Source: Salegentibacter sp. 24 (GTDB lineage: Bacteria > Bacteroidota > Bacteroidia > Flavobacteriales > Flavobacteriaceae). From it: a DNA stretch of 64,000 bases. Positions 37,256 through 54,617 of the stretch are shown in pieces. A program made the position numbers and the translations under genes. Positions within the stretch are counted from its first letter, which is position 1. Each line of letters starts with the position of its first letter. Below the pieces are notes generated by a model. The model had not been told where the DNA came from, made no database searches, and saw only the letters and a program-made list of their open reading frames with translations. The DNA lies in NCBI RefSeq assembly GCF_004362395.1, contig NZ_SNWE01000005.1, positions 62,001-126,000 on the forward strand, read 5' to 3'.

Positions 37256-39529
37256 TTACTCCACTACAGTAAAAGTTCCTGTGAACTGATGATCTGAACT
37301 TCCCGCAACGAAAAATTCAAATTCACCGGGTTCAACCACAAATTCAAGGTTCGCATTATAGAATTTCAGGTCTTCAGCAGATATTTCAAAACTTACTTTT
37401 TTAGATTCTCCTTTTTCTAATAAGATCTTTTTAAAGGCCTTCAACTCCTTTTTTGGAGGTGTAATGCTCCGCACTTTATCGTGCGTATAAAGTTGGACTA
37501 CCTCTGCTCCATCATATGCTCCTGTATTGGTTACAGTTGTGGTAATGGTGATGGTGCCACCTTTGCTTAATTTATTGTCACTAATTTTAGTTTCCCCATA
37601 TTCAAAATTAGTATAGCTCAATCCGTAACCAAAAGGCAATAGAGGAGAATTAGGTGAATCCAGGTAATTGCTTTTAAATTTCTGAAACTCTCCGCTTTCA
37701 GGAGCTGGTCTGCCAGTAGTTTTCATTCGATAATAGATTGGAATTTGTCCAACATTTCTTGGCCAGGTTGCTGTTAGTTTTCCTGAAGGATTATAATCTC
37801 CGAAAATCACATCAGCTATTGCATTACCAGCTTCTACACCAGGATGCCAAACCTGAAGAATACTTACGGGCATTTGCATTTCTTCTTCTATCACAAGGGG
37901 TCGGCCGCTCATAAGCACTAAGACTACAGGTTTTCCCGTTTTTACAAGCGCTCTAATTAGCTTCTTCTGACTTTCAGGGATACTTAAACTGGTACGACTT
38001 GCCGCTTCCCCGCTCATTTCAGTAGCCTCACCTACGGCTGCAACAATAACATCAGCGCCTCTAGAAACTTCCAAAGCCTCTTCAATCATAGCTTCAGGTG
38101 ATTTTTCTGAAATCTCAATACGTGGACCAAACACGTTCACTTTGTCTGCGAAAACACTATCATTGCTAATATTAGCACCTTTTGCGTAAGTGATTTCTGC
38201 CTGGGGAGCCACATTTCTTAAACCTTCCAAAATCGGAACTGAAAGTTCCGGATTGCCTGTTGGCGCCCAGGTTCCTAACATATTGTTCTTGTTATTGGCC
38301 ATTGGTCCTACCAATGCAATTTTAGCATCTTTAGACAAAGGAAGGGTGTTTTTATGCTTTTTTAATAACACGAAAGAACGTCTTGCTGCTTTTCGAGCTA
38401 TGGAGCGATTTTCTTCAGTTAGAATATCTTTTTCAGGTCTGCTTTCATCAGAATACAAATAAGGATTATCTAGAAGTCCTAATTTATGTTTGGCTTCCAG
38501 GATTCGACGTACAGCTTTAGTAATTTGTTCTTCAGACACCTTTCCTTCTTCAACAGATTTCTTAAGCGTAGTTAAGAATCCTTCTCCAACCATATCCATA
38601 TCAAGTCCGGCATTTATTGCCAAAGCAGAAACATCCTGAAGATCTCCCATACCGTGTGCGATCATTTCGTTAACCGAAGTATAATCTGAAACCACAAAAC
38701 CGTCAAAACCCCAACGTTCCCGGAGTAAATCGGTAATTAACCATTTGTTTCCAGAAGCGGGTACCCCGTGAATGTCGTTAAAGGATGTCATCGCGCTGGC
38801 AACTCCAGCGTCTACCGCAGCTTTATATGGCGGTAAATATTCATTGAACATTTTTATCTTACTCATATCTACCGAATTGTAATCACGGCCGGCCTCAACT
38901 GCTCCATAAAGTGCCAGGTGCTTTACTGTCGCCAACATCGTATTAGGTGCCGAAAAATCCTCACCCTGATAACCTTCTACCATTGCCCTGGCAACTTGAG
39001 AACCCAAATAAGGATCTTCTCCTGCTCCTTCAGCAATTCGACCCCAACGCGGGTCACGGGCGATATCTACCATAGGTGAGAAATTCCAGTTTATACCATC
39101 AGCCGTGGCTTCTTTTGCGGCTATTTGAGCGGTTTCTTTAATCAAATCCATATCCCAACTGGAAGAAAGTCCAAGAGGAATAGGAAAGGTGGTTTTATAA
39201 CCATGGATAACATCAGATCCGATTAAAAGGGGAATGCCTAAACGAGAATTCTCTACGGCAAGTTTTTGTGCCTGTCTGACTTTTTCTGGACTGGAAACTC
39301 CAAAAATACCTCCAACATTTCCCTCTTTTATTTTAGCCTCTACATCTTCACTAACTACCGATCCAGTGGCTACACCTCCGCCGGGAGTTACTAAATTTAA
39401 TTGACCTATTTTCTCTTCAAGAGTCATTTTACTGAGTAATTCCTCTACTTCGGGAATCTGTGCTTGTGCTTGCAGAACCGATGCTGCTGTACATATTGTC
39501 AAGCCAAGTATTAGATAAATTCTTCTCAT
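37256..39529 (-). CDS. GH3 family beta-glucosidase (BglX-like)
   Basis: A 757-aa exported enzyme (signal peptide ending LQAQAQ). It has the three-part GH3 build of BglX: TIM barrel (about 25-360) with SDVIHGYKTTFPIP, WNFSPMVDIARDPRWGR and the nucleophile Asp282 in VVSDYTSV; alpha/beta sandwich (about 385-600) with AAVGEATEMSGEAASR; and a C-terminal fibronectin-III-like domain (about 660-755). It would release glucose from beta-gluco-oligosaccharides; B. thetaiotaomicron uses a GH3 enzyme on beta-1,2-gluco-oligosaccharides next to a GH144 enzyme. It is the last gene of the minus-strand glucan run, 28 bp after the GH43-like gene. Confidence 0.95.
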   Translation of the reverse strand: MRRIYLILGLTICTAASVLQAQAQIPEVEELLSKMTLEEKIGQLNLVTPGGGVATGSVVSEDVEAKIKEGNVGGIFGVSSPEKVRQAQKLAVENSRLGIPLLIGSDVIHGYKTTFPIPLGLSSSWDMDLIKETAQIAAKEATADGINWNFSPMVDIARDPRWGRIAEGAGEDPYLGSQVARAMVEGYQGEDFSAPNTMLATVKHLALYGAVEAGRDYNSVDMSKIKMFNEYLPPYKAAVDAGVASAMTSFNDIHGVPASGNKWLITDLLRERWGFDGFVVSDYTSVNEMIAHGMGDLQDVSALAINAGLDMDMVGEGFLTTLKKSVEEGKVSEEQITKAVRRILEAKHKLGLLDNPYLYSDESRPEKDILTEENRSIARKAARRSFVLLKKHKNTLPLSKDAKIALVGPMANNKNNMLGTWAPTGNPELSVPILEGLRNVAPQAEITYAKGANISNDSVFADKVNVFGPRIEISEKSPEAMIEEALEVSRGADVIVAAVGEATEMSGEAASRTSLSIPESQKKLIRALVKTGKPVVLVLMSGRPLVIEEEMQMPVSILQVWHPGVEAGNAIADVIFGDYNPSGKLTATWPRNVGQIPIYYRMKTTGRPAPESGEFQKFKSNYLDSPNSPLLPFGYGLSYTNFEYGETKISDNKLSKGGTITITTTVTNTGAYDGAEVVQLYTHDKVRSITPPKKELKAFKKILLEKGESKKVSFEISAEDLKFYNANLEFVVEPGEFEFFVAGSSDHQFTGTFTVVE

Positions 39530-39557
39530 TTTATTTAGTTTATATTATCAACATTTT

Positions 39558-41363
39558 TTATTCTACTTGTAATACCGGAGATCTTTCTGAAATGCCATTT
39601 TCATTGAATGCCTCAATACTAAAATAATACTGTGTATCACGATCCAGGCTACGCATAAAATGCTCATTCCTATCATAAATTAACCAGGATTGATATAATT
39701 TATCTGGCGCGATACCCCATCGGATATTGTAGCCCTGAGCTCCTTCCACCGGGTTCCATTTCAGGGAGGCATTTCTTCTGTCCTTTTCTCTTGATACGGT
39801 GAATCCTTTCACCGTTGCTGGCTTCTCTCCTAAACCCTTACCAAATACTCTTATTTCGGACAATGCCAGGTTTTTTCCAGGAACTTCCACATTTTTATAT
39901 CTTACATATTTTGCTTTTACAGGCTGACTTAGGGTAATGTAGGCATTGGGGGCATCTTCATAGCTTTCACTTCGGTCTACTACTGTCTCCCAGTCTGTGC
40001 CATTTTCAGAGACCTCAAGTATAAACCGGTGTCTCAAGCCTTCCGTACGGGTATATATGCCTGCGTCCTGATCATGAAAATTCAGTTGAAAAGCATATAT
40101 ATTTCCAGGTGAGAGCATTTCGATCTCAACCCATTGCTCATCATTATTGGCCTTAGCAACCCAAAAAGATTTCGGGCTTTCGTCGGTTAACAACTTGGAA
40201 ATAATTTCACCCTCACTGTTTCTTTCTAGAGGCATTTCCTTAATGTCATAATCCCCATCGGTAGCAGTACTTTTTCTCACCTGCATTTCTGAGGAAGAAA
40301 CTGTTGCATTTCCCTTGTAAGAAAGCAACATCCAACCACTGTGTTGTCCTGCCATTGTTGGATGATCGGGACCGAACAACGGGTAATCGCCATAACTTGT
40401 ATTGGTGTACATTAATCCTTCTTGATCAAAATAGGTAGGGAACATGCTTAGACGACGTTCCCAATGGGAGTTCGAAGCCAGGGCCATGGTTGCAAAATGC
40501 CAATATTGGCCATTGGTTTGTTTCATCGTAATTCCGTGGCCCGCCCCGTTAGCAAAACCACCTGGTTTGAAACTCATGGGATTATTTTTCATGTAAGTAA
40601 ATGGCCCAAGTGGGGTTTCTCCAATGTAAGCGGCATCGGCGTATACATTAAATTGTGTTCCAGGAGCCGCATATTGTAGATAATATTTACCATCATGTTT
40701 TGTCATCGAGGCTCCTTCCATGTAACCTTCCTTTATGGTTGGATGGTAATTATTTTGACCAAAACGCTCCCAACCGTGTTCTTCTTCAACCAGGTTGATA
40801 AGCTCTTTTTCAACTCCGGTTTCAAGAAAACGATCATTTTTATCTAGCATTTTCACACGAAGAGGATGGACATTCGAGGAGCCCCAATACAAATAGGTTT
40901 TCCCATCATCGTCGATAAATAATTCCGAATCCTGAATATTATTACTAATGGAGGCGGTGGGGGTCCAATTACCACTTTTCGGGTCATCCGTGTAAAGAAT
41001 ACTCCCATAACCCGCAGGATCACCAGCAAAATATACTAGCGAATCCTTATAATTGAAAGCCGTTGGCGCATTGGACCCCTCGAAAAACCATTGTTTCGGT
41101 TTAATAAATTCCCAGTTAATCAAATCGGTGCTATGCCAATAACCAAAAGAACGGGTAACAAACATATAATACTCGCCTTGAAATTCAATTACCGCAGGAT
41201 CAGCACCGGAACGATATGAAATATTATCACTTGAATTATAAACCATATAAGAATAGTCAATATCCAAAGGATTAATATAAGTTTCTGGTACCACTTCCTG
41301 TGCAAACATTAATGCGCCAAATAATAAGGCCGCTGTAGTAAGAATATTTTTAAAACTTTTCAT
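39558..41363 (-). CDS. GH43-like glycosidase with discoidin and fibronectin domains
   Basis: A 601-aa exported protein (signal peptide ending LMFAQE). Residues about 45-385 form a five-bladed propeller of the GH43/GH117 superfamily with the expected acidic residues Asp55 (SGADPAV), Asp145 (IQDSELF) and Glu216 (GYMEGASM). Next is an F5/8 type C (CBM32-like) domain (about 390-510, with LRHRFILEVSENGTDWETV) and a fibronectin-III domain (about 515-601). Neighbours are a GH3 gene (28 bp downstream) and an esterase (29 bp upstream). Alpha-L-arabinofuranosidase or beta-xylosidase are the common GH43 activities, but neither fits a plain glucan, so the activity is left open. Confidence 0.85.
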   Translation of the reverse strand: MKSFKNILTTAALLFGALMFAQEVVPETYINPLDIDYSYMVYNSSDNISYRSGADPAVIEFQGEYYMFVTRSFGYWHSTDLINWEFIKPKQWFFEGSNAPTAFNYKDSLVYFAGDPAGYGSILYTDDPKSGNWTPTASISNNIQDSELFIDDDGKTYLYWGSSNVHPLRVKMLDKNDRFLETGVEKELINLVEEEHGWERFGQNNYHPTIKEGYMEGASMTKHDGKYYLQYAAPGTQFNVYADAAYIGETPLGPFTYMKNNPMSFKPGGFANGAGHGITMKQTNGQYWHFATMALASNSHWERRLSMFPTYFDQEGLMYTNTSYGDYPLFGPDHPTMAGQHSGWMLLSYKGNATVSSSEMQVRKSTATDGDYDIKEMPLERNSEGEIISKLLTDESPKSFWVAKANNDEQWVEIEMLSPGNIYAFQLNFHDQDAGIYTRTEGLRHRFILEVSENGTDWETVVDRSESYEDAPNAYITLSQPVKAKYVRYKNVEVPGKNLALSEIRVFGKGLGEKPATVKGFTVSREKDRRNASLKWNPVEGAQGYNIRWGIAPDKLYQSWLIYDRNEHFMRSLDRDTQYYFSIEAFNENGISERSPVLQVE

Positions 41364-41392
41364 CTTTGCGTCTTAAACTGGTTAATAACTGC

Positions 41393-42208
41393 CTAATTTT
41401 TTAGTTGTTTTCTTTTAGTTAGTTTATGTGAAAATAGCCAGGGTAATAAATTTGGTTCAGCAAATGCCGAATCCCAGCTGTTGTGATTATCGTCCGGGTA
41501 AAGGGAAAGTTTAGCATTTCCCCCATAGTGATTAATGGCACGAGCCATTGCCTCGGAATACTTTGGTAATACTACATCGTCCTTTTTTCCATGAAATAGC
41601 CAAATATTGAACCCTTGTGGATATTCTTTAGCTATTTCGGGATTTGCACCGCCACAAATTGCAAAGGCTGCAGCGAACATTCCAGGTCTTTTATAAATGA
41701 GTTCGAAGGTGCCCATTCCACCCATGGAGAGTCCACCAAGATAAATTCGGTCTTCATTCACATATGGCTTAGAAATCATTTTTTCCATTAAATCCATCAC
41801 AAGTTGCAAAGATTTCGTAGCAGGCTTATCATTCATAAAATCAAACTGAAAAGGAATGGTATCACGATTCACTTCAACCTTGGCCCAGTAATCATCTTTT
41901 GGCGCCTGCGGAAAAATAACTATAGCAGGGAAATCCTCCTGATTCTTCAGAAATAATTCACTCCCGTGAGTTAATTGGGACTGATTATCGTTTCCTCTTT
42001 CTCCCGCCCCATGCAGAAATAAAACCACGGGATATTTTTTAGCCTGAGAAAAATCCTTCGGAAATAGAATACGGTAATTTAAGGTATCACCATCTTTAAT
42101 AAATTGCTCCTTTTTATAGGCCTGTTGTTCCTGTGCCGCTACTGTTATCGGGATTAACAACATAATTAGGATAAATAATGTTACTAGGTATAAAAATCTT
42201 TTTTTCAT
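41393..42208 (-). CDS. Secreted prolyl-oligopeptidase/PHB-depolymerase-like esterase
   Basis: A 271-aa exported alpha/beta hydrolase (hydrophobic leader, cleavage near TVAAQEQ). Motifs: FLHGAGERGND oxyanion region, nucleophile in LGGLSMGGMGTFE, acid in HGKKDDVVLP and base in PDDNHNSWDSAF. This is the pattern of the COG4099-type esterases (putative phospholipase/carbohydrate esterase) found in many glycan loci. It would remove ester groups such as acetyl or succinyl from the glycan. Gaps to its operon neighbours are 29 and 35 bp. Confidence 0.85.
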   Translation of the reverse strand: MKKRFLYLVTLFILIMLLIPITVAAQEQQAYKKEQFIKDGDTLNYRILFPKDFSQAKKYPVVLFLHGAGERGNDNQSQLTHGSELFLKNQEDFPAIVIFPQAPKDDYWAKVEVNRDTIPFQFDFMNDKPATKSLQLVMDLMEKMISKPYVNEDRIYLGGLSMGGMGTFELIYKRPGMFAAAFAICGGANPEIAKEYPQGFNIWLFHGKKDDVVLPKYSEAMARAINHYGGNAKLSLYPDDNHNSWDSAFAEPNLLPWLFSHKLTKRKQLKN

Positions 42209-42243
42209 TTTTTGATATATAAAACCTTTGTGGTTTAGTGCTA

Positions 42244-43242
42244 CTATTTTAAATGAGTGTTTTCAAATGTGAAGTCATGATCCTGTTCTTTTTTAAATTC
42301 ATCTAGCCAGGGAGAATATGTTTTTACATCAATTTTTTGATTTTCAGGATCAACTTTAATAATTCTTAGAAAACCATTGCCTCCTTTTTTTGTGCCTTCA
42401 ACTCCTTTTTGGTAATTGGCGAGCATTTGGTATACTTTATTCCCCTTTTCTCCCTCACTAACTAAAGTTCCGACTCCAGATTTAAGAATATGGCCAGAAA
42501 AAACCATTTTGATATTTTCGTGTTTCTTAATCAATTTCTCCCAAAGTTGCCGGCCATTATTTGGAGCTTCCTTACCAATATCCTTTCCAATACCATAATT
42601 TTCGGGGAGCCACCAGTCTTCCCCATCGTGAAGTGACCCGTCCTCGTAGAGGTAAGCATGGGTGACCACTATAAAATTATGATCAGGATATTTTGAAATC
42701 ATGTCGTTAGCCCATGCAATAGTTTTATTACGCGGGCCAAACTCTAGGGAAAGCACCATCCATTTTTGTTCTCCAATCTTAAATTCGCTCAGTAGATTAT
42801 CTATTTTACCCTTCGGAAAAGATGCAACAAGATTGGAGATATCATTAGACGGAAAAAAAGCATTGGCTAAAGAAGTATTTCTTGTATCGGCAAATTTCCC
42901 GATTTTACTGCCCATATCATGATTTCCAAGTGCAAAAGAATAAGGTACTTTTCCCTGCAGGATATTGAAGCCTTTTTTAGCTATATCCCACTCCTTCCCA
43001 CTATTATTTTGGGTAATATCACCGACATGCAAGGCAAAGGAAAATCTTTCCTGATTGTTGGCCAACCATTGCATTTGGTGTAAATAAATTTCAGGATATT
43101 CTTCAACATACGTTTGGGTATCTGGAAGCACCACAAATTCAAAAGCTTGCTGCTGTGCTGAAGTAGTTTTTGAAACTGCAAATACCACAAGCACTAGCTG
43201 TAGGCTCCAATTTTTACGGAAGTATATAAAGAATTCAATCAT
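42244..43242 (-). CDS. Secreted calcineurin-like metallophosphoesterase
   Basis: A 332-aa protein exported through a leader ending TTSAQQ. The two-metal phosphoesterase motifs are in order: VLPDTQTY, HVGDITQNN, ALGNHDMG, VVTHAYLYEDG and FSGHILKSG. It should cleave phosphomono- or phosphodiesters outside the cytoplasm. Its place inside a glycan operon, 5 bp after a GH144-like gene, suggests that the glycan carries phosphate groups; phosphoglycerol on periplasmic beta-1,2-glucans would be an example. This substrate is inferred. Confidence 0.88.
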   Translation of the reverse strand: MIEFFIYFRKNWSLQLVLVVFAVSKTTSAQQQAFEFVVLPDTQTYVEEYPEIYLHQMQWLANNQERFSFALHVGDITQNNSGKEWDIAKKGFNILQGKVPYSFALGNHDMGSKIGKFADTRNTSLANAFFPSNDISNLVASFPKGKIDNLLSEFKIGEQKWMVLSLEFGPRNKTIAWANDMISKYPDHNFIVVTHAYLYEDGSLHDGEDWWLPENYGIGKDIGKEAPNNGRQLWEKLIKKHENIKMVFSGHILKSGVGTLVSEGEKGNKVYQMLANYQKGVEGTKKGGNGFLRIIKVDPENQKIDVKTYSPWLDEFKKEQDHDFTFENTHLK

Positions 43243-43247
43243 ATAAA

Positions 43248-44618
43248 TTAATTAGAAATATTGAATCCCAATTTGTCTAATCCCTTCTGCACCTCAGGTG
43301 CTCCCATAAATAAATCCCAAATAAGGCCACTTCTATAATTTTCTATCATTACAACTTGAGGCCCCTGATCTATTGCCAGGTATTTTGGAGCTACCCAATC
43401 TTCACCTTCAAGACTAAAAGCATCGTAAAAACCTGCAGGTCCCCATAGCAAGTCATTCTGCTCTTCAAAGAAATATCGCATAGCAGCTAATGAAATCTCA
43501 GGGGTATACGGAATAGAACTAATCGCGCCAGTTGGAGAAACCACACCGCGATCTGAATCCGGGGAATGTGCCGCATAGCCAATACCGTCATCTTCATTAC
43601 GGGTATAACTGGCGGTTAAGCCCCAGGAATTCTCAGTATAGGTTTCAAAATCATTGGGATTTTCCTGAGCGTATTGATAATTTATTTTAGTGTGATTCAC
43701 GTTCAAATCCCAGTAATTTGCATATATATCTACGAGTCCCTTAGGATTCAAGCCTAAATAAGAATAGTGCGCCCAAAAAAGTGGGCCTGCTTTATCCCCG
43801 GAGGTATTATGTTTTAAGATCAGAGGTATTCCGTAGGCTTCTTTATCGCTCACAATATTTCCGCTCCTAGCCCAGCCATCATGGTAGGCATCAGCTTCAA
43901 TTGCGTGATCTGGAGAAGAAGCGGCCATAATATAAGTAATCAAACATTCATTATAACCTTCGATCATAAAATCCATTTCCCACTGGTAATCCGGTGACCA
44001 GTGCCAGTAAAGTCCGTCTTTATTATTGGTGTACCATTCCCACTCGATACCTTTCCATAATTTATCATATTTTGCCGCCACTTCTTTTTCTCTTTCGTTT
44101 CCATTTTTCAAATATTCACGGACTACGAGAAAGCCCTGGGCTAGAAAGGAAGTTTCAACAAGATCTCCGCCATTATCTTTATCACTAAAAGCCTGAACAT
44201 CTCCGGTTTCGCCGTTTAGCCAATGTGGCCAAACCCCGTGAAATCTAGGAGCCTTATCTAAGAAATTGGCAATCTTATCTAAACGAGCTATCGCTGAATC
44301 CCTGGGAATAAACTCACGTTCCATCCCCGCTACAATGGCCATTAATCCAAAACCAGTACCTCCAGTGGTGACCACGTGCGCATCATCCTTTGGATATACC
44401 CCATCTGGATGATAACGCTCCCGGGCCATTCCTGAATTAGGTTCGGCATATTCCCAAAAATATTTTAGTGTTTGCTTCTGAACAGTATCTAGCAGGGCTT
44501 CTTTGGAAAGGGCTTGGGTTCCTTTCGTTTCTTTGTTAGCTTCACTTTTATCTTCATTTTTACAACCTATGCAAAACAGCAAAGCGAGTAAGAGGATGGT
44601 TGATTTAAAGTGTGTCAT
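43248..44618 (-). CDS. GH144-like enzyme (PF10091), lipoprotein, copy 1
   Basis: A 456-aa lipoprotein (lipobox LLFCIGC). It is an (alpha/alpha)6-type enzyme of the glycoamylase-like family PF10091, from which GH144 endo-beta-1,2-glucanases come. Asp148 and Asp152 in SDKDNGGDLVET and Glu224 in GYNEC keep the 4- and 72-residue spacing that I recall for the key residues Asp135, Asp139 and Glu211 of the Chitinophaga enzyme. It should act on beta-1,2-glucan or a related beta-glucan. It is the third of three paralogues in a row, 44 bp after the 720-aa copy. Confidence 0.85.
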   Translation of the reverse strand: MTHFKSTILLLALLFCIGCKNEDKSEANKETKGTQALSKEALLDTVQKQTLKYFWEYAEPNSGMARERYHPDGVYPKDDAHVVTTGGTGFGLMAIVAGMEREFIPRDSAIARLDKIANFLDKAPRFHGVWPHWLNGETGDVQAFSDKDNGGDLVETSFLAQGFLVVREYLKNGNEREKEVAAKYDKLWKGIEWEWYTNNKDGLYWHWSPDYQWEMDFMIEGYNECLITYIMAASSPDHAIEADAYHDGWARSGNIVSDKEAYGIPLILKHNTSGDKAGPLFWAHYSYLGLNPKGLVDIYANYWDLNVNHTKINYQYAQENPNDFETYTENSWGLTASYTRNEDDGIGYAAHSPDSDRGVVSPTGAISSIPYTPEISLAAMRYFFEEQNDLLWGPAGFYDAFSLEGEDWVAPKYLAIDQGPQVVMIENYRSGLIWDLFMGAPEVQKGLDKLGFNISN

Positions 44619-44662: not shown

Positions 44663-46825
44663 CTAATTTTCTACTTTTCTTATTGCCCTAAGTGCTTCAT
44701 GGACATTTTCATTCTTCATAAACAGATCCCATATGAGACCGCTTCTATAATTTTCTATCATCACTACCATTGGAGCCTGATTTAATCCCATAAAAATATC
44801 GGCAGTCCAGTCTTCTGATAAATTAAATGCATCCCTAAAACCATATTCCCCCCAAAGAAAAGAACCATATTCACGGTAAAAGTGTTTTAAAGCTTGCATT
44901 GATTTGTCCGGGGTATAGGGAAATGAAGCTATAGCACCAGTGGGTGCGATGGTACCATCGTCCATTTCAGCTTTTGCTTCTCGAGCTTTATAACCCCAGG
45001 GGCCGTCACTTGCGGTTAGACCCCAGCTTTCCTTACCATAACCTTCAAAATCTCCGGGATTCTCACAGCAATACCTGTAATTGATGGAAACAATAGCCTT
45101 GTTATTTTCGAAATAGTTGGTGTATTTATCTTCCATTTTTTTTGGATTGAGCCCAAGAAAAGAGTAATGGGTAAAAAACAGAGGACCTCCCACACCTACA
45201 CCTATCTCCAATGGGATTCCAAAATAACTTGTATTATTGGTATACATAGAACCTTCTGCTGTTTGCCCCCAATTAGCGCGGTAACTTTTTGCGATACTAT
45301 CCTGACTTGCCCAACCACTGTAATACATTTCAGGTGAAATACCATGAGTCGGAGAGGCTATTGCGAGGATATAAGTTATCATAGTTTCATTCCACCCAAT
45401 AAGCTTATGATTTATATGCCATTTATATTCTGGAGACCAATGCCAGAATAGGTATGGACTATCTTGCTTCTTTTTAAACCAATCCCATTCTACATCTTTC
45501 CAAATAGCAGAAATTCTATCTCTTAGGTTTCTTTCTTCCGGATTATTTTTTGACAGATATTGTTCGGCTGCTAAAAGCCCCTGAATGAAAAAAGAGGTTT
45601 CAACCAAATCAGCTCCATCATCATATTTCCCGAAAAATGCTTCCACTCTGCCAGTTGGTCCATCCATAAAATGTGGTAATGCGCCATGAAATCGATCTCC
45701 ATTTTCAACAAAACGAACTATTTTTTCCATTCGCGTAATAAATTCTTCTTTAGATATAAAGCCTCTTTCTGTTCCTACGATCAAAGCCATAATCCCAAAA
45801 CCTGAAGCTCCTGTAGCAATCATATTCTTTCTTCCAGGTATATTTTCAAGGGCTAAACCACTATTAGGTTCTGCACCCTCCCAGTAGTAACGAAAACTAG
45901 CTTTCTGAACCATATCCAGCAGCTCCTTATCACTCATTTCCCTGGTGGTCACTTTGACGGATTCGGTCAGTGAAGTTTCAACATAATCATAACTAAGGCT
46001 GCTTAGCTTATAGAAGTAGGTTTTTCCAGGAACCCCTGTATAATCGGCATATCGAGAGAATTCATCTGGACTTTGAACCCCAACACCGACGAAGTTCTTG
46101 TTGTCCTCAGAACGGTAAATTTTAACATAACGTACTTCGTCAATACTCTCAAGAGACCAATTTATATCTACATGTCTTTCATAAGCTTCTGCACTTTTTA
46201 TTTCCGGAGATGGTATTTTTCTAGTGGAAATTGTTTCATTAATTATTTCCACCTGGTCTATTAAAATTTCATGTTTACCAATATCGAAAGGTGATTGTTT
46301 GAGTGACACAATCCTGATACCATTACTATTGGTAAACCCCTTAAATCTTTCCAGGGGAACTTTTACCTGTATCCATTTTTTTTCTGCATAACCTGTGATA
46401 TACTCACCTAGGGGAATATAATTTGAGATAAGCTCCGGGCCCCTTCCAATGGCTATTTCAGGGAGTTTTTCTTTGGAGATTGATTGAGGAAAATATAACC
46501 AGAGACTTAATAGGTTGCCTTTTTTTAAAAAATCCTTCCCACGCCATTCCGGATATATAAGGTTTACTTTCCAGCTGCCTTTAGGGGCTGAACTATAATT
46601 TAACTGAAGACTATTGCCTGGTGTAAAAGCCAGTTCAGAGGCTATTGGAAGCCTACCTTGAATGTTTAGAATATAAGAGGGGGAAGTATAAGAAGTTTCC
46701 CCATAAAACCAACTTTTTTCCATTAAACTATTATCGAAAAAAACGTGGTTGTATTGAGTTTCCTGGGCATATTGCATCAATGGGAAAAATAGACAAAACC
46801 AAAAAACACCACTTATCTTCATCAC
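44663..46825 (-). CDS. GH144-like enzyme with N-terminal beta-sandwich and fibronectin domains, copy 2
   Basis: A 720-aa exported enzyme (signal peptide ending MQYAQE). About 300 residues precede the catalytic part: a beta-sandwich that looks like a carbohydrate-binding or CIA30-like domain (about 22-195) and a fibronectin-III domain (about 205-300). The PF10091 catalytic domain follows from about residue 305, with conserved FGKYDDGADLVETSF and IGWNETMITY. It may be an exo-acting or product-specific form (the B. thetaiotaomicron locus has a GH144 that releases sophorose), but this cannot be decided. It lies 10 bp after copy 3. Confidence 0.85.
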   Translation of the reverse strand: MMKISGVFWFCLFFPLMQYAQETQYNHVFFDNSLMEKSWFYGETSYTSPSYILNIQGRLPIASELAFTPGNSLQLNYSSAPKGSWKVNLIYPEWRGKDFLKKGNLLSLWLYFPQSISKEKLPEIAIGRGPELISNYIPLGEYITGYAEKKWIQVKVPLERFKGFTNSNGIRIVSLKQSPFDIGKHEILIDQVEIINETISTRKIPSPEIKSAEAYERHVDINWSLESIDEVRYVKIYRSEDNKNFVGVGVQSPDEFSRYADYTGVPGKTYFYKLSSLSYDYVETSLTESVKVTTREMSDKELLDMVQKASFRYYWEGAEPNSGLALENIPGRKNMIATGASGFGIMALIVGTERGFISKEEFITRMEKIVRFVENGDRFHGALPHFMDGPTGRVEAFFGKYDDGADLVETSFFIQGLLAAEQYLSKNNPEERNLRDRISAIWKDVEWDWFKKKQDSPYLFWHWSPEYKWHINHKLIGWNETMITYILAIASPTHGISPEMYYSGWASQDSIAKSYRANWGQTAEGSMYTNNTSYFGIPLEIGVGVGGPLFFTHYSFLGLNPKKMEDKYTNYFENNKAIVSINYRYCCENPGDFEGYGKESWGLTASDGPWGYKAREAKAEMDDGTIAPTGAIASFPYTPDKSMQALKHFYREYGSFLWGEYGFRDAFNLSEDWTADIFMGLNQAPMVVMIENYRSGLIWDLFMKNENVHEALRAIRKVEN

Positions 46826-46835
46826 CCTAGTTCAA

Positions 46836-48167
46836 TTAATATTTAAATCCAAGTTTATCTAGCCCGGCTTGTATTTCTTCATCTTGCATAAAAAGATCCC
46901 AAACTAAACCAGTTCTATGATTTTCTATCATAGAAATAATTGGTCCCTGGTCTATGGCCAGGTATCCATCGGCTACCCAGTTCTCTTCTTCAGAAAAAGC
47001 ATCATAGAAACCATAAGGTCCCCAAAGTTTATCTCCAATTTCTTCATAGAAATAACGAAGGGCCTTCATAGATTCCTCAGGTGTATATGGGAAAGAGGAT
47101 AATGCTGCAGTAGGTGTAATCACTCCAAGATCATTCGCGGGACTGTGAGCCGCATAACCTTCATAGCTATCACTTGCCGTAAAACCCCAGCTGTGCTCAC
47201 CATAACCTTCAAAATTCTTGGGATTATCTATGGCATAATTATAATGAATAAGACTATGAGCCGTATTTTGTTGCCAGTAATTAGCATATTGATCACTTAG
47301 ATTTCGGGGATCCAGACCTATAAATGAATAATGTGCAAAAAACAATGGTCCTCCATATGCAGGTCCCAGAGGTAAATCTAAGCCATAATGCTGACGATTA
47401 TTCACCATATTACCATTGGATGCCCAACCCTGGTGATAGACTTCGGGCTCAATAGGATAGGTAGGCGATGCCGAAGCAAGTACATACACCATAAGAGATT
47501 CATTCCAGCCTTGAATTTTCAGGTTTTTTTCAAAATTATAAGTTGGTGACCAGTGCCAGTACAAAACGTTTTCTTCCTGTGTATACCAGTCCCACTCAAC
47601 AGCCTCCCACAGTTGCGTAATTCGCGCTGTTATATTTGTTTGCTCAGAAAAATACTGTCGATTAATCAGTAATCCCTGCATTAGGAAAGCAGTTTCTACC
47701 AGGTCTCCCCCATCATCCATATTGCCGAAAGGACGAGTTTGAGCCACATCATCTAGATACCAGTGCGAAAAAGCACCGTGATAGGTTGGTACTTCTTCTA
47801 AGAAATCAAGGATTTTATCCAACCTTGCTACAGCATCTGATCTACTTATCCAACCGCGCTCAACTGCAACTGGAAAAGCAGCAAGACCAAAACCGGAACC
47901 TCCTATTGCTACAATATTTCTTCCCTGCCCCCCGTAAGCATCTGCTTGGGACCGCTCAAGTGCTAAGCCTGAATTAGGCGCAGCAAAATCCCAGAAATAC
48001 TTAAAGGTTTGCTGCTGTACTTTTTCCAGTAGTTCTTGGTCAGTTAATTTTTCTTCCTCTTCGATTTCTGAATCAGGATCATATGGTTCCTGGTATCCCG
48101 GCCCCTCATCACTGGAACAGGATGAGAAAACCATCATTAACCCTATAAAATACAAGTATCTAATCAT
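46836..48167 (-). CDS. GH144-like enzyme (PF10091), lipoprotein, copy 3
   Basis: A 443-aa lipoprotein (lipobox VFSSC). The catalytic domain has GNMDDGGDLVETAFLMQG and GWNESLMVYVLA, plus the C-terminal FPYTPEESMKALRYF and DGYLAIDQGPIISMIENHRTGLVWDLFM blocks (given in part) shared by all three paralogues. It is the first enzyme gene after the SusC-SusD-lipoprotein set and is separated from it by a terminator-like hairpin at 48260-48292. A surface endo-glucanase role is likely. Confidence 0.85.
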   Translation of the reverse strand: MIRYLYFIGLMMVFSSCSSDEGPGYQEPYDPDSEIEEEEKLTDQELLEKVQQQTFKYFWDFAAPNSGLALERSQADAYGGQGRNIVAIGGSGFGLAAFPVAVERGWISRSDAVARLDKILDFLEEVPTYHGAFSHWYLDDVAQTRPFGNMDDGGDLVETAFLMQGLLINRQYFSEQTNITARITQLWEAVEWDWYTQEENVLYWHWSPTYNFEKNLKIQGWNESLMVYVLASASPTYPIEPEVYHQGWASNGNMVNNRQHYGLDLPLGPAYGGPLFFAHYSFIGLDPRNLSDQYANYWQQNTAHSLIHYNYAIDNPKNFEGYGEHSWGFTASDSYEGYAAHSPANDLGVITPTAALSSFPYTPEESMKALRYFYEEIGDKLWGPYGFYDAFSEEENWVADGYLAIDQGPIISMIENHRTGLVWDLFMQDEEIQAGLDKLGFKY

Positions 48168-48234: not shown

Positions 48235-48257
48235 CTCGCTTAAATTATATTAGCGAG
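48235..48257 (-). other. Second hairpin after the internal terminator
   Basis: CTCGCT (48235-48240) and AGCGAG (48252-48257) can pair around an 11-nt AT-rich loop, directly downstream (minus strand) of the terminator at 48260-48292. With that hairpin it could protect the 3' end of the SusCD transcript or the 5' end of the enzyme transcript. Confidence 0.45.
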
Positions 48258-48259
48258 GC

Positions 48260-48292
48260 AAAAAAGATTCCGGCCCCTTTAAGGCCGGAATT
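48260..48292 (-). terminator. Internal terminator/attenuator inside the glucan operon
   Basis: On the minus strand ATTCCGGCC and GGCCGGAAT (9-bp GC-rich perfect stem, loop TTAAAGG) are followed by C and six T residues. It lies 13 bp after the stop of the LamG lipoprotein and 93 bp before the first GH144 gene. No consensus promoter was found in between, so the enzyme genes probably depend on read-through. Confidence 0.85.
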
Positions 48293-48304
48293 ATTTTAAG
48301 AAAT

Positions 48305-50020
48305 CTATTGGGCCATTGCAGCCTGTATCTCTTCCTGAGTTAGTGCCTTATTGTAGAAACGAAGCTTGTCTAAATAACTTTGATCGGCCAAATGACCCCA
48401 TTCGGTAAACCTCGGTGCACCAGACATTATGGAAACTATATCGGTTCCTGTCCAGTCAATACCTCCAGAAATAGTTCCAGTGTTTACAGGTTCGCCATCA
48501 AAATAGATCACGGTCTCAGAATCAGAAATAGTAAAGGCAACGTGAACCCATTCCCCTGCAGTTGCGTCTAAAACACCACCGTCATTCCAGCTATCAGAAG
48601 TTCCATTCCCTACGTTCAATTTAATGGTTTGTGCATCGGCACTTCCCTCTCTAAAGAGACGGAAACCACTTGTTCTATTATTTTGAGCATCAGGACTGTC
48701 TTCATCCAGGGGACCAACAACTATAATTCCTGCACGATCTGGAGAAGCATTTACGTTGTACCAGAAAGTAGCACTGAATTCTTCGCTTAGAAGTCCGTCA
48801 GATGGTAATAGTAGGTAAGAATTTTCAGCACCTGCATAGGCATTGGTTCCTTCTACACTTTCCCCTGCAAACCCTGGAGATCCTACTACAGTAACTTCGC
48901 GATTGGAAACCATATCTTTATAAGCTCCATCAAATGGCATATCAAGTGTAATTGAAGAGGCATCGATCAATTCCTGAATTTCCTCCTGGCTAAGAGCAGT
49001 ATTAAAGAGCCTAAGTTCATCTATATTACTACCTATATCTGAATTATGATTCCAGTAACTAAAAGTTTCTCCACCAGCACCTACGGTAAGTTGTTCCACT
49101 CCTGTCCAATCAATGGCACCAGCCATTACACCGGTATTAACAGGCATTCCGTTGAAATAAAGTACTGTTTCTGTTGGAGTTATACTAAACGCAATATGAA
49201 CCCATTCCCCTTCGGTAACATCAATTACTCCACCGTCGTTCCAGCTTTCTGCTGTTCCAGTGCCGACATTTAATTTTAGCCTTTGCTCCTCGGCTGATCC
49301 TTCCCTGAACAATCGAAAACCTTGTTGACGTTCCTCATTTGCACCGGCCACTAAGATTCCTGCACGGTCTGCCTCTGCACTTACCTTATACCAGAAAGCA
49401 CCGGTGAATTCATCTCCAAGATTTTCCTGGTCAAGTGGTACATCTATATAAGATTCAGCTACACCTTCATAACTTCCAGTCCCTAAATAGGAATCACTAG
49501 AAATTATCGGGCTTCCGGTTACCTCTGCCATATAAATGTTTACCAGTTCGGTAAAATCTGCATCCATGGGCATAAAAAAGAATTCCCCTGCGTATTTTGG
49601 AGTATAGGGAGGTTCTTTACTGAAATTTACAGTTTTAGTAGTAACGTTCCCTGCAATATCTGTAGCTTTAATAGTAAGGGTGTGTTCACCATTGGTCACA
49701 TTATCAAAACTAACCTCCTCATTTACTATTCGATAGTCAAGAAATTCATTAAACGTGGCAATCTGGTTCCCGTTTACCAAAACTTCAATCATATCGACCT
49801 CTATATCATCGACTACCTTAAACCGGATATCAATTGAAGCCACGGCTTCAGGAACTTGGATAGCCGTACCTTCATTAGGATAGTTAATTGTTACTTCTGG
49901 ACTACCCGCATCGGCACCCGGATCTACCTTTGTAAGTGGATCTATGCCTTCATATTCACATGCGGTTAATAGTAGAATAAATGAAAACAGACCCACAAAA
50001 TATTTATTAATTTTTTTCAT
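48305..50020 (-). CDS. Surface glycan-binding lipoprotein with two LamG-like domains
   Basis: A 571-aa lipoprotein (lipobox LLTAC, then EYEGIDPLTKVDPG). It has an Ig-like domain (about 45-135) and two concanavalin-type (LamG) domains (about 145-355 and 360-571) that are close copies: each has FRLFREGSA, LKLNVGxGT, SWNDGGV, EGEWVH or AGEWVH, YFxGxPVNTG and IDWTG. No catalytic residues are seen. In the SusE/F position, third in the operon after SusC and SusD, it should hold glycan at the cell surface. It is 6 bp from the SusD gene. Confidence 0.88.
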   Translation of the reverse strand: MKKINKYFVGLFSFILLLTACEYEGIDPLTKVDPGADAGSPEVTINYPNEGTAIQVPEAVASIDIRFKVVDDIEVDMIEVLVNGNQIATFNEFLDYRIVNEEVSFDNVTNGEHTLTIKATDIAGNVTTKTVNFSKEPPYTPKYAGEFFFMPMDADFTELVNIYMAEVTGSPIISSDSYLGTGSYEGVAESYIDVPLDQENLGDEFTGAFWYKVSAEADRAGILVAGANEERQQGFRLFREGSAEEQRLKLNVGTGTAESWNDGGVIDVTEGEWVHIAFSITPTETVLYFNGMPVNTGVMAGAIDWTGVEQLTVGAGGETFSYWNHNSDIGSNIDELRLFNTALSQEEIQELIDASSITLDMPFDGAYKDMVSNREVTVVGSPGFAGESVEGTNAYAGAENSYLLLPSDGLLSEEFSATFWYNVNASPDRAGIIVVGPLDEDSPDAQNNRTSGFRLFREGSADAQTIKLNVGNGTSDSWNDGGVLDATAGEWVHVAFTISDSETVIYFDGEPVNTGTISGGIDWTGTDIVSIMSGAPRFTEWGHLADQSYLDKLRFYNKALTQEEIQAAMAQ

Positions 50021-50026
50021 TATTTT

Positions 50027-51604
50027 TTAGTTTAATTGTCGCAAAATCTCGTTTGTTGGAGTATCTCTATCTACCGCAGTTGCCTCAATAGGTAATGCAT
50101 CTAATTGTGCCTGTGGATAGGGCAGGTATTCATCATCGGCTGAGAATTCTCTACCGTCATAACTTAATTCCCCGTATTTATCGTGACGAATCATATCATA
50201 ATATCTAATCCCCAATTCCATAGATAATTCAGCGAATTTCTCGTCCAAAACCTGTTGATGCGTCACACCGCTTAATGGCTGCATATCGGCACGGTCTCTT
50301 ACTATATTTACAGCTTCATCTGCTGAAATGCTTGGTGCGCTAGCACCCAGGGTAATAGCCTCGGCATACATCAGAAGAATTTCAGCATATCGGATAACAA
50401 TCAGGTTCTTTCCTGCACTGTAGTCATTTCTTCCATCGGTAAGCTGGATGGAGGGCAGGTAATGTTTACCGCTTGCGAATCTTGCACGGGCATAATCATT
50501 AATAATATCGCCAGAAGGGGTCACATTTGACACAAATGCTGGTAAATCTGTATATCCATCTGCCTGGAGGTCGGCAATACCCCTGTCGGTAAATAGTACA
50601 CTTGTCACCAATCTGGTTTCCTCATCACGGTCTAACATAAATTTTATGAATTTTTCACTAGGTTCATAGAATCCCCAACCACTTTGCGCATTTTCACGAA
50701 CGGGTGTCCAGTTTTGCGGACCAAAAGGAGCGTATAGATGATACAATTCATCTCCTGCTTCCGTACCATAATCAGAATACTGGATTTCCAGTAAGCTCTC
50801 GTTACTTAGTTCTCCTGGTTTTTTAAACAACTGATAAAAATCCGGATAAAGGGAAAATTTACCTGAACTTATAATTGCCCCTGCCGCATCTGCTACTTCC
50901 TGGTAATTTTCCAGCTCCTGATGAGCCAGAGCCTTAAGCGCGTAGGCTGTATACTTTGTCACTCCACCACGAATATCAGTACGTTCGTTTGGACGCATAT
51001 CTGGCAGGTTTTCAATTGCCATATCCATTTCATCGGAAATAAACTGCATAACATCCGCTTTAGATGACACACCTAGCTCAAGCTCTTCTTCTGGCTGATT
51101 GGAAGTTATTATAAAAACATCTTCCCAAACTCTTGCCAGATTAAAATGCAGATAAGCTCGCAATACTTTAATTTCAGCGATATATTGATCCGCTCTTGCT
51201 ATACCCTCTTCATCTGCATACTCTTTAAAGTTTTCAAGTTGCAGAATTGCTGTGTTCATATTAATAATATCATTGTAATGCACATTCCAAAGAGAATTAT
51301 ACATCCAATAATTCTTTTCATAATCATACCTATCGGTATCGGCAAATGGTTGTTGATCTCCCAATCCACCTGCATTTACATCATCACCTCTTACACCAAG
51401 TAAAAGTGGTTCCTCCCATCCTCTGGTGGCAAATTCGTAATAAGCACCAATTAGGGGTTGTATCATATTACTGGCATCGGTATAATCAAGATCACCGGTA
51501 TTTAACTGGCCCTCCCGCACATCTAGTTTCTCACTACACGAGCTTACTCCAAAGCCAAAAACAAGGCACAAAAGAAGAAATTTTATTAAACTATATTTTT
51601 TCAT
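50027..51604 (-). CDS. SusD/RagB family lipoprotein of the glucan locus
   Basis: A 525-aa lipoprotein (lipobox FGVSSC). It has SusD features: LDVREGQLNTGDL near the start, RAYLHFNLARVWEDV in the helical part, YAEILLMYAEAI and a C-terminal block with the FAELSMELGIRYYDMIRHDKY signature (given in part). It is the partner of the SusC encoded 10 bp upstream. The glycan preference is inferred from the neighbouring GH144-like and GH3 enzymes. Confidence 0.93.
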   Translation of the reverse strand: MKKYSLIKFLLLCLVFGFGVSSCSEKLDVREGQLNTGDLDYTDASNMIQPLIGAYYEFATRGWEEPLLLGVRGDDVNAGGLGDQQPFADTDRYDYEKNYWMYNSLWNVHYNDIINMNTAILQLENFKEYADEEGIARADQYIAEIKVLRAYLHFNLARVWEDVFIITSNQPEEELELGVSSKADVMQFISDEMDMAIENLPDMRPNERTDIRGGVTKYTAYALKALAHQELENYQEVADAAGAIISSGKFSLYPDFYQLFKKPGELSNESLLEIQYSDYGTEAGDELYHLYAPFGPQNWTPVRENAQSGWGFYEPSEKFIKFMLDRDEETRLVTSVLFTDRGIADLQADGYTDLPAFVSNVTPSGDIINDYARARFASGKHYLPSIQLTDGRNDYSAGKNLIVIRYAEILLMYAEAITLGASAPSISADEAVNIVRDRADMQPLSGVTHQQVLDEKFAELSMELGIRYYDMIRHDKYGELSYDGREFSADDEYLPYPQAQLDALPIEATAVDRDTPTNEILRQLN

Positions 51605-51614
51605 AATAACAATT

Positions 51615-54600
51615 TTAGAATTTTATATTAACACCCATGGTGTAAATTGCAGGAACAGGATATGTTTGTCTATCCACGCCATCTGCTACTTCAGGATTGA
51701 AACCATTGTAGTCAAAAAATGAAAATGGTTTCTCAGCAGTGAGATAAATTCGTGTATTTGGAATTCCTTTGGCTTCTAAATTATAAGCTACTTGAATATT
51801 CTGAATTCGGAAAAAATCTCCATCTTCTACCCAGAAATTACTCAATCTCTGGTTCCAGGCTTTACGCAATCCTGCTGAAGAAGGGTAAGTATTACTAGTA
51901 CCCTCGCCATGCCATCTATTTATAGCAAGATCAGCATCCATATTGGTGTCCTGGGTAAAAATAATTTCTCCTCTTTTTCTATTTAAGATCTTGTTACCAG
52001 CCTGACCGTAAAAGTCCAGTGAGAAATCAAAAGCTTTATAGGAGAATCCAATATTCCCACCAAAAGTATATTTAGGAAGGAAAGATCCCAGAATCACCCT
52101 ATCGGCATCATCTATTACTCCATCCCCGTTCTGGTCCCGGTAAATTAAATCTCCAGGAACAAGGCCATTGGCCACTGCAACCGGATCAGCTTCAATCTGT
52201 TCCTGATTTTGATAAACTCCAATTCTTTCATATCCGAAAAATCCTAGAAGCGGACCTCCAATGGTTGTTCGCTGTCTAAATTCAGCTGAGCCGGAATCAA
52301 TGTATCCACGTTCATCTTCAATTTCAAGAGTTTCGTTTTTAAGTGTAGTAAAGTTTGCTCCTATCCTAAATGTAAAATCTTCAGAAATTTGCTGACTCCA
52401 ATTGGCAACAAGTTCCAGACCTTCATTTCTAATTACTCCGGAGTTTCTGTCTACACTGCGGTTAACGATGGGTATATATACTGGTAGAATTGCATCATGG
52501 GTGTCACGAATATAATAGTCGGCATCCACAGACAATCTATTATCAAATGCTTCAATATTTAGACCAAAGTTATACTCTTCTATAACTTCCCAAGTGTTAT
52601 TAGAAAATACACTAGTAGAAGTTAAACCTGTACGAGGCTCGTCACCTATTGGGGTAGTGACAACCTCTATGGTATTAGAACCGGCACTTGCTGCAACATT
52701 ATCATTACCTAGTTTACCCCAGCTGGCTCTTAGCTTAAAGAAATCCAGGACTTCATTATCTCTCAGGAATTCTTCTTCAGAAACCACCCATCCTAAACCA
52801 AGAGAAGGAAAATACCCCCAAGGATCTAGAGTAAATTTAGAAGATCCATCAGCTCTGAACGTACCATATAGCAAATATTTATCTTTAAAATTGTAAGCTA
52901 CTCTACCAAAATATGATAAGCCGTAAAACCTTCTACCAACTTCGCTTACATTACTATTAAAGGAATCTGGATCTGCAAAATCAAGATACCAACTTGTTTC
53001 AAGGCCAATACCGGTAATATCAAATCCAGTGGCAGAAAAAGTGTTACTAGCTTCATCCCTAAAAGAAGTACCCGCCATTAAAGTCAGGTCATGATCGCCA
53101 AAATTATCGTTATAGGTAAGAACGTTATCCCAATACTGGTTGGAATAATTATTATTTGCTCTTCTTATACTGGATCTGCGTTCAAAGTTATTGCCTAAAG
53201 TATAAGGAAGATTTACATTCCTTTCCTCTAAAGCAGTAAAATTATGGCTATAAGTAGTTTTAATATCCAATTTATCCTCTATAATATCAAACTGAAGGAA
53301 CATAGAAGTCAGCAATTTTCTAATTTTAATCCTATTCTCATTATAAGAAAGATCCTGAAACGGATTTTGTGTACCTCTGTACCCAAGAAGCTGAGCATTG
53401 GAATATCTTATTGGTGAAGCCTCGGTATTGAGCTCATCAAATACCGGCATTGTAGGAACGGCAAAATAAGCTCTAAACCAGGCTCCGTTTTCAGGAGCAT
53501 ATTTAATAGCATTACTAAATATAGAATTGACGCCCATTTTTAAACGATCGGAAATATCAACATCGACCTTAGAACGAATATTGAAACGCTCATAGCTATT
53601 CTCCATATCTAATATCCCCTCCTGACCGGTATAGTTTGCTCCCAAGGCATAAACTACACTTTCGCCACCACCTGAAACCGATAAACTATGGTTTTGGATG
53701 ATACCTTGTCTAAGTATCTCTTTATACCAATCAGTATTAACTGCCGGCACATTTGGATTTATTCGGCTACGCCCATAACGCTGGATAGCATTCTCAATAA
53801 ATTGTATCTCTGCAGCAGAACCAGACTCTCTGGCCATAGTAGCAAACTGTTCTGTATTAGCCAGTTTAACTACATTCTGTGCTCTTTGAAAACCAGTATA
53901 TCCATCATACTCAAATTGAGGTTTTTGATTTTTTCTACCTGATTTAGTTTCAATAATCACAACCCCATTAGCCGCTCTAACACCATAAATAGCGGAAGAT
54001 GATGCATCCTTTAATACATTTATGGACGCTATATCCTTTGAATTCAGGAAATCAATATTATCATAAAGAGTACCGTCTACTACATATAAGACACTAGTGG
54101 CATCTCCATAGGTGCCAAGTCCTCTAATTCTAACGGTAGGAGAATCTCCTGGAGAACCGGAATTGACAATCTGCACCCCTGAAACTTTACCCTGAAGTGA
54201 CTGCATAACATTTGATGATGGTGTTTTTTCAATTTCTTCGGAATCTATAACACTAATGGCTCCGGTTAAATCTCTTTTCTTCTGGGTACCATAACCTACC
54301 ACGACAACCTCATCCAATTGATCGGCGTCCTCTTCCAATGCAATAGAATATTCATTAGTTTGAGTGACTGTAAATTCTTGAGGTACAAATCCCAAATAAG
54401 TCACTCTTACGGCATCACCAGTTTCAACACCTTCTAAGGTGAAGTTTCCGTCAAAATCGGTAACATCGAAAATCTCTTTGCCAATTACCTTAACCTCGGC
54501 TCCAGGTAAAGGCATTGCATTTTGATCCGTTATTATCCCTGAAACTGTTTTGGTTTCCTGAGCGAACCCAAAACCGGATAATAGGACCATACAAATGAAT

Positions 54601-54617
54601 AATAATTTTAATTTCAT
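51615..54617 (-). CDS. SusC/RagA family TonB-dependent transporter of the glucan locus
   Basis: A 1000-aa outer-membrane transporter and the first gene of the ten-gene run. It has a signal peptide ending GFAQE, a carboxypeptidase-regulatory-like domain (about 22-100), the hallmark LDEVVVVGYGTQKKRDLTGA, the plug end IYGVRAANGVVIIETKSG and a barrel ending VNIKF. It should import gluco-oligosaccharides in a TonB-dependent way together with the SusD encoded at 50027-51604. Confidence 0.95.
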   Translation of the reverse strand: MKLKLLFICMVLLSGFGFAQETKTVSGIITDQNAMPLPGAEVKVIGKEIFDVTDFDGNFTLEGVETGDAVRVTYLGFVPQEFTVTQTNEYSIALEEDADQLDEVVVVGYGTQKKRDLTGAISVIDSEEIEKTPSSNVMQSLQGKVSGVQIVNSGSPGDSPTVRIRGLGTYGDATSVLYVVDGTLYDNIDFLNSKDIASINVLKDASSSAIYGVRAANGVVIIETKSGRKNQKPQFEYDGYTGFQRAQNVVKLANTEQFATMARESGSAAEIQFIENAIQRYGRSRINPNVPAVNTDWYKEILRQGIIQNHSLSVSGGGESVVYALGANYTGQEGILDMENSYERFNIRSKVDVDISDRLKMGVNSIFSNAIKYAPENGAWFRAYFAVPTMPVFDELNTEASPIRYSNAQLLGYRGTQNPFQDLSYNENRIKIRKLLTSMFLQFDIIEDKLDIKTTYSHNFTALEERNVNLPYTLGNNFERRSSIRRANNNYSNQYWDNVLTYNDNFGDHDLTLMAGTSFRDEASNTFSATGFDITGIGLETSWYLDFADPDSFNSNVSEVGRRFYGLSYFGRVAYNFKDKYLLYGTFRADGSSKFTLDPWGYFPSLGLGWVVSEEEFLRDNEVLDFFKLRASWGKLGNDNVAASAGSNTIEVVTTPIGDEPRTGLTSTSVFSNNTWEVIEEYNFGLNIEAFDNRLSVDADYYIRDTHDAILPVYIPIVNRSVDRNSGVIRNEGLELVANWSQQISEDFTFRIGANFTTLKNETLEIEDERGYIDSGSAEFRQRTTIGGPLLGFFGYERIGVYQNQEQIEADPVAVANGLVPGDLIYRDQNGDGVIDDADRVILGSFLPKYTFGGNIGFSYKAFDFSLDFYGQAGNKILNRKRGEIIFTQDTNMDADLAINRWHGEGTSNTYPSSAGLRKAWNQRLSNFWVEDGDFFRIQNIQVAYNLEAKGIPNTRIYLTAEKPFSFFDYNGFNPEVADGVDRQTYPVPAIYTMGVNIKF

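Follow-up and report, generated by a model that had tools for sequence, protein, structure and literature searches.

A probable beta-1,2-glucan utilization locus of Salegentibacter sp. 24 that probably acts on ester-decorated chains and carries a GH144-linked metallophosphoesterase

A run of ten genes in Salegentibacter sp. 24 (Flavobacteriaceae) raises the question of what glycan it serves, and of what a predicted secreted esterase and a predicted secreted metallophosphoesterase (MPE) do among its glycoside hydrolases. The genes lie in a stretch of 64,000 nucleotides, here called the window and used for all coordinates, which spans positions 62,001 to 126,000 of NZ_SNWE01000005.1, a contig of 221,649 bases in a 4.15-Mb genome of 61 contigs. 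We propose, with a probability of roughly 0.7, that the genes form a polysaccharide utilization locus (PUL) of the Bacteroidota type for beta-1,2-glucan carrying ester-linked groups, in which the chain would be captured and cut at the cell surface, imported through SusC and relieved of its decorations in the periplasm. An earlier note on this DNA had described a ten-gene locus with three PF10091/GH144 genes in a row, a GH3 gene, a SusC/SusD pair, an MPE and an esterase, and this description is confirmed by Pfam and TIGR searches and, for the MPE, by the predicted fold; it had omitted the GH43 gene and the gene for a LamG protein, and its interval left out a sulfatase. The ten open, co-directional genes (37256-54617, minus strand) are separated by gaps of 5-44 bp, with the exception of 137 bp between the genes for GH144c and the LamG protein, and, the MPE excepted, receive the Pfam calls GH3, GH43 with F5/8C and fn3, alpha/beta-hydrolase esterase, three times PF10091, Laminin_G_3, SusD and SusC:

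51615-54617, minus strand: SusC-type TonB-dependent importer (TIGR04056, E 4.9e-240)
50027-51604, minus strand: SusD-type glycan-binding lipoprotein (PF07980/PF14322; lipobox-like pattern)
48305-50020, minus strand: LamG (Laminin_G_3) lipoprotein, probable surface glycan-binding protein (PF13385, E 1.7e-43; lipobox-like pattern)
46836-48167, minus strand: GH144c, probable surface lipoprotein and probable endo-beta-1,2-glucanase (PF10091; closest solved chain 4gl3, 55.8% identity; lipobox-like pattern)
44663-46825, minus strand: GH144b, 720 amino acids, extended at the N terminus and probably an exo enzyme that releases sophorose (match to 5z06, BDI_3064)
43248-44618, minus strand: GH144a, predicted CpSGL-like endo-beta-1,2-glucanase (match to 5gzk; key residues kept)
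42244-43242, minus strand: calcineurin-like MPE, predicted secreted, of a GH144-dedicated subfamily (AlphaFold model, VIA-align and linkage)
41393-42208, minus strand: predicted secreted alpha/beta-hydrolase esterase, GH144-linked (PF02230, E 4.6e-14; PDB 3doh, E 7.6e-34; linkage)
39558-41363, minus strand: GH43 with F5/8C and fn3 domains (PF04616, E 1.1e-23; just two PDB matches, both weak)
37256-39529, minus strand: GH3 beta-glucosidase of the BglX type (NF011678 BglX, E 7.6e-265; 5xxl 'Periplasmic beta-glucosidase', E 1.9e-267, the fifth-ranked match)

The backbone of the substrate is indicated chiefly by the three GH144 proteins, whose PF10091 scores of 263.2, 244.1 and 266.5 bits compare with a curated cut-off of 27 and which account for every PF10091 match found in a search of the genome. 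GH144a is 56.4% identical to CpSGL (PDB: 5gzk; E 8.5e-169). GH144b matches the exo-acting GH144 enzyme BDI_3064 of Parabacteroides distasonis (PDB: 5z06) over nearly its full length, N-terminal extension included (E 1.4e-254 across residues 22-718; 62.5% identity in the catalytic part), and both have an asparagine at CpSGL position 400; a corresponding activity is predicted for it from the sequence. Six residues, D135, D139, E142, E211, F268 and Y330 in CpSGL numbering, are kept in all three window proteins and in 127 of the 127 aligned neighbourhood homologues of at least 430 amino acids. According to the excerpted text of PMC12102758, E211 occupies the general acid position and E142 is the likeliest general base, most activity is lost in mutants of D135, D139 and E142, and E211, F268 and Y330 were used for superposing CpSGL; by our reading of a figure legend in the same paper, the latter three correspond to clan-defining residues. 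A tree, which the earlier note had named as the check on its assignment, places GH144b in one group with BDI_3064 and a third sequence (support 1.0 for the group and 0.778 for the pair), and together with the scores over the cut-off and the conserved residues it leaves the enzymes inside GH144.

The known enzymes and gene clusters closest to this set point in the same direction. BDI_3064 is presumably the sophorose-releasing GH144 homologue with an N-terminal extension of the literature, and 5xxl, matched by the window GH3, is what we take to be an enzyme of Bacteroides thetaiotaomicron. We know of no esterase, sulfatase or phosphoesterase in the beta-1,2-glucan cluster of that bacterium. As far as it is described in the excerpts of PMC8861115, the B. 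thetaiotaomicron cluster shares with the window GH144 and a GH3 of the same type, and a GH144 homologue that is longer at its N terminus, cited there to a Parabacteroides distasonis paper, is exolytic and produces sophorose from non-reducing ends. On the whole, the GH144 matches, the conserved residues, the grouping with BDI_3064 and the GH3 match to 5xxl support the beta-1,2-glucan reading: as judged from sequence, the gene cluster very probably digests a chain of beta-1,2-linked glucose, and beta-1,2-glucan is well supported as the backbone.

The place of the esterase and the MPE in such a locus is indicated by their linkage to GH144, which was counted in 299 genomes of the family, that of the window included; PF10091 is matched in 77 of these and exceeds the cut-off in 75. 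The E thresholds were 1e-20 for the MPE, 1e-30 for the esterase and 1e-150 for the sulfatase; up to eight esterase and up to four sulfatase candidates were scored per genome, so that distant homologues are undercounted, and the counts are of places in related genomes rather than of independent events. All 8 places with an MPE of at least 59% identity lie within 5 kb of PF10091, as against 0 of the 10 at 34-40%. Of the 39 places with an esterase at 52% identity or more, 37 are within 15 kb of GH144, compared with 4 of 12 at 49-51% and 2 of 40 below 49%, and the sulfatase behaves similarly, with 46 of the 49 places at 63% identity or higher falling within 15 kb of GH144 (47 within 20 kb) and only 1 of 83 at 56% or lower. 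Among named genomes, the MPE query returned 46 loci, 18 of them at 55% identity or higher and 17 of these 18 in Flavobacteriaceae, including Salegentibacter, Psychroflexus, Galbibacter, Flavobacterium, Flaviramulus, Winogradskyella, Subsaxibacter and others. The MPE gene stands directly after a GH144 gene in all 17 (seven of which are shared with the MPE places of the family sample), and the esterase gene directly after the MPE gene in 16. With the more distant homologues as internal controls, these counts uphold the assignment of the esterase and MPE to GH144 loci and lead us to reject their status as chance passengers. From their sequences and gene neighbours, the esterase, sulfatase and MPE look dedicated to removing decorations from the glucan chain.

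Sequence searches with the MPE itself gave no hit in Pfam up to E 10 or in the PDB up to E 1; a 55%-identical relative from Alteromonas matches the Metallophos domain. An AlphaFold model, based on an alignment of the window protein with 36 relatives, has a mean pLDDT of 85.4 and was compared by VIA-align with the 1000 chains ranked highest by Foldseek. The best of these is 2xmo (Z 22.7, 3.6 Å, 255 residues) and the second the glycerophosphodiesterase GpdQ (3d03; Z 20.7, 3.1 Å, 230 residues), followed by human purple acid phosphatase (2bq8; Z 20.0) and then by Rv0805 and SMPDL3A, so that the modelled fold is that of the calcineurin-like metallophosphoesterases. Since GpdQ scores within about 1 Z of purple acid phosphatase and behind 2xmo, this ranking favours no one substrate class for the MPE. 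D41, D75, N107, H108, H195 and H251 are among the residues shared by all 37 aligned sequences, and an insertion after H195 marks off the GH144-linked group from homologues at 33-37% identity. The usual metal-ligand set of metallophosphoesterases consists of D-x-H, GD, GNHD, H and GHxH. With GpdQ and related calcineurin-like phosphodiesterases the MPE shares the fold and the GD, GNHD, H and GH motifs; it differs from them in being only about 15% identical, in having DxQ for DxH and in lacking the second histidine of GHxH.

Further genes flank the ten, with a LuxR-type sensor/regulator upstream of the operon and the sulfatase gene divergent from that of the regulator:

54843-57593, minus strand: sensor/regulator with LuxR-type HTH (GerE, E 2.2e-05)
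57614-59371, plus strand: S1 sulfatase, probable lipoprotein, GH144-dedicated (PF00884 and SGSH_C, PF16347; CGPSR; 9s03, E 3.3e-262)
34554-37154, plus strand: GH2 with malectin domain, found repeatedly as an accessory gene in GH144 loci (PF02836, PF11721; 5uj6, E 1e-183)
33621-34520, plus strand: second esterase (BD-FAE), likewise a recurring accessory gene in GH144 loci (PF20434, E 4.1e-24)

An adjacent susC/susD pair accompanied by CAZymes and a regulator gives the region the make-up of a PUL. The C-x-P-S-R motif is the formylglycine signature of S1 sulfatases, and the sulfatase belongs to that class by its C-G-P-S-R and its PF00884 and PF16347 domains. Its nearest solved relative, 9s03, is named 'Putative sulfatase' and is followed by chains named mucin-desulfating sulfatase and N-acetylglucosamine-6-sulfatase; a single-sequence AlphaFold model (pLDDT 35) was not used. 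It is the commonest dedicated extra partner of GH144 found, with an orthologue within 20 kb of GH144 in 47 of the 75 GH144 genomes and none within that distance in the other 28. It lies outside the interval considered earlier, and the idea of decoration must be widened to include it. The GH2 protein contains N-x-K (INQKGL), a motif that we take to be one of beta-glucuronidases.

Core and accessory genes can be told apart across 84 neighbourhoods, 74 with GH144 and 10 with only a distant MPE, in which genes were labelled by their best match to window proteins and edge genes are undercounted, the stretches being at most 20 kb long. The 74 GH144 neighbourhoods have at least two GH144 genes in 52 cases, SusC in 64, GH3 in 61, the regulator in 49, the esterase in 45 and the LamG protein in 41, followed by the sulfatase (35), GH43 (28), the second esterase (25), GH2 (14), a PF03372 protein (13) and the MPE (7). 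One order recurs, regulator-SusC-SusD-LamG-GH144-GH144-(MPE)-esterase-GH3, to which the remaining genes are added in varying combinations. The compact GH144 locus of Psychroflexus curvus (G174) has the MPE and esterase, and this genome is outside the 96 with a sulfatase match, indicating that the MPE and the sulfatase are separable modules. The GH43 protein is 76-80% identical in the more distant loci L086, L113, L114 and L115, against only 54-56% for the GH144 proteins there, which hints that the GH43 gene was transferred separately or has changed more slowly.

Two further leads were followed. The PF03372 (Exo_endo_phos) gene of the 13 neighbourhoods (for example L070:18089-18934) was considered as a second phosphoesterase clue and is kept as suggestive only, because the family occurs in 122 of the 299 genomes and, of the best 63 matches in a longer list (down to about 290 bits), 42 lie elsewhere and 21 within 15 kb of GH144. 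Homologues of the MPE at 33-36% identity in alphaproteobacteria (Bosea, Agrobacterium, Ensifer and others; L154-L160, L162-L169, L180), several of which are genera of cyclic-glucan producers, raised the possibility of a link to makers of the substrate. This link was dropped, since the homologues are parts of very large open frames of about 1600-3100 amino acids and, at E 1e-8, none of the remaining frames of those loci had a match among the window proteins. Elsewhere in the window, 605-15260 encodes two GH10 proteins, two SusD proteins and large genes of TonB-receptor size and resembles a xylan utilization locus, and 59489-61531 encodes a Radical SAM/HhH protein and then a DUF4130 protein, probably unrelated to the sugar locus.

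In the proposed pathway the SusD and LamG surface lipoproteins would capture the glucan, surface GH144 endo-glucanases would cut it and SusC would import the fragments. Behind the outer membrane, acyl, phosphate and sulfate groups would then be taken off by the esterase, MPE and sulfatase, after which the exo-acting GH144b would yield sophorose and GH3 glucose; the simplest purpose of the removal would be to clear ester groups that would otherwise block these two enzymes. The distribution of lipobox-like N termini suggests such a division, with the glucan bound and cut on the cell surface and the imported fragments trimmed in the periplasm: the pattern occurs in SusD, LamG, GH144c and the sulfatase and is not matched by GH3, GH43, the esterase, the MPE or GH144b, nor by GH144a despite a cysteine in a similar place.

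A number of observations weigh against this proposal. The lipobox pattern is crude, matching also 2 of 7 MPE and 27 of 68 GH3 relatives. A plain beta-1,2-glucan would not call for GH43, GH2 or, in other loci, GH97; as specificity cannot be read from these families, GH97 and GH2 are not taken as evidence for particular side chains. The MPE was found in only 8 of the 75 GH144 genomes, and a genome of the same genus (G257) has the operon without the MPE and GH144b, so that phosphate removal is not a core step. In the window MPE and seven close relatives, DxH is replaced by DxQ (Q43) and the final histidine of GHxH is missing, so that two of the usual metal-ligand histidines are absent and the ligand set is incomplete. 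Finally, the eighteenth close MPE, from Alteromonas ponticola (55% identity) and the only one outside Flavobacteriaceae, does not stand beside GH144: its 21-kb locus has no match to a window GH144, and the MPE is surrounded by GH31, sulfatase, LacI, MFS and TonB-receptor genes (L152, 6520-20675), suggesting gene transfer and possibly a shared decoration.

Among the alternatives, the one that survives best, and to which we grant somewhat less than an even chance, holds that the locus is directed at a sulfated, perhaps also branched, beta-1,2-glucan rather than at a bacterial periplasmic glucan, with the MPE as an occasional accessory. The sulfatase orthologues near GH144 in 47 of the 75 GH144 genomes, compared with 8 for the MPE, agree with it, as do the mucin-desulfating and N-acetylglucosamine-6-sulfatase relatives of the sulfatase. 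In the excerpts of the respective papers, a sulfate-decorated version of a terrestrial glucan is proposed for marine GH144 loci (Lapebie 2019, PMC6499787) and Maribacter has a set of GH3, two GH144, susCD and sulfatase genes (PMC8072126). Against it stand Psychroflexus curvus, with the MPE and esterase and no sulfatase match, the 28 of 75 GH144 genomes that have no such sulfatase within 20 kb, and the fact that no description of a sulfated beta-1,2-glucan was found among the titles and opening abstract lines surveyed in the open-licence literature.

Rather unlikely, in our estimate, is the more specific proposal, which builds on the phosphoglycerol and succinyl groups named in the earlier note, that a GH144-dedicated, secreted MPE subfamily strips phosphodiester-linked phosphoglycerol or phosphoethanolamine, and the esterase succinyl or acetyl groups, from the osmoregulated periplasmic or cyclic beta-1,2-glucans of neighbouring bacteria, so that certain Flavobacteriaceae would feed on osmoprotectant glucans. 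According to the excerpts of PMC11842490, the linear forms of such glucans bear succinate, phosphoglycerol and phosphoethanolamine, the cyclic ones succinyl and acetyl groups, and the resemblance of the MPE model to GpdQ and the ties of close MPE and esterase relatives to GH144 loci are in keeping with this. Its weak points are the Z scores of 20.0 for purple acid phosphatase and 22.7 for 2xmo next to the 20.7 of GpdQ, a sulfatase, GH43 and GH2 (and recurring GH97) that have no evident role on the substituents in those excerpts, and, as weak evidence, an open-licence literature in which no paper joining 'periplasmic glucan' and 'SusD' was found. That the MPE harvests phosphate from unrelated organophosphates and stands in the operon by chance is improbable, for its 34-40% relatives elsewhere in genomes and the Alteromonas copy away from GH144 are outweighed by its position beside GH144 at 8 of 8 family-sample places and in 17 of 17 named Flavobacteriaceae loci, seven of them shared, and by the conserved insertion that sets its group apart.

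The preferred reading, of a PUL for beta-1,2-glucan carrying ester-linked groups, has forerunners. The excerpted text of PMC6499787 describes marine organisms with GH144 loci and an added sulfatase, from which a sulfate-decorated form of a terrestrial polysaccharide was deduced, and that of PMC8072126 reports the Maribacter GH144 genes in all Maribacter and Zobellia compared. These loci share GH144, GH3, SusCD and the sulfatase with the window; no phosphoesterase is named in the same excerpts, and the window adds the GH144-dedicated MPE, the linked esterase and a third GH144 of BDI_3064 type. No paper on an MPE in PULs, or on an enzyme that removes phosphoglycerol from periplasmic glucans, was found among the titles listed from the open-licence literature, which is weak evidence. 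The earlier note had held that a pathway for the decorated periplasmic glucans of other bacteria would be new; because a beta-1,2-glucan decorated with sulfate is already in print as a proposal (excerpts of PMC6499787), such a claim has to be confined to the phosphoesterase. What is new in a locus otherwise of known type is the GH144-dedicated phosphoesterase.

The excerpts of PMC6499787 name loci for beta-1,2-glucan (GH144) among the abundant utilization loci of Bacteroidota and describe the natural marine form of the substrate as unknown. The MPE, the esterase and the sulfatase, with close relatives that stand almost solely beside GH144 in the sampled genomes, provide three chemical clues to it. 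If the MPE does act on phosphoglycerol, it would indicate that periplasmic glucans of bacteria are turned over in nature, and it could also serve as a tool for their analysis, given that the positions of the substituents on periplasmic glucans are reported as not identified (excerpts of PMC11842490).

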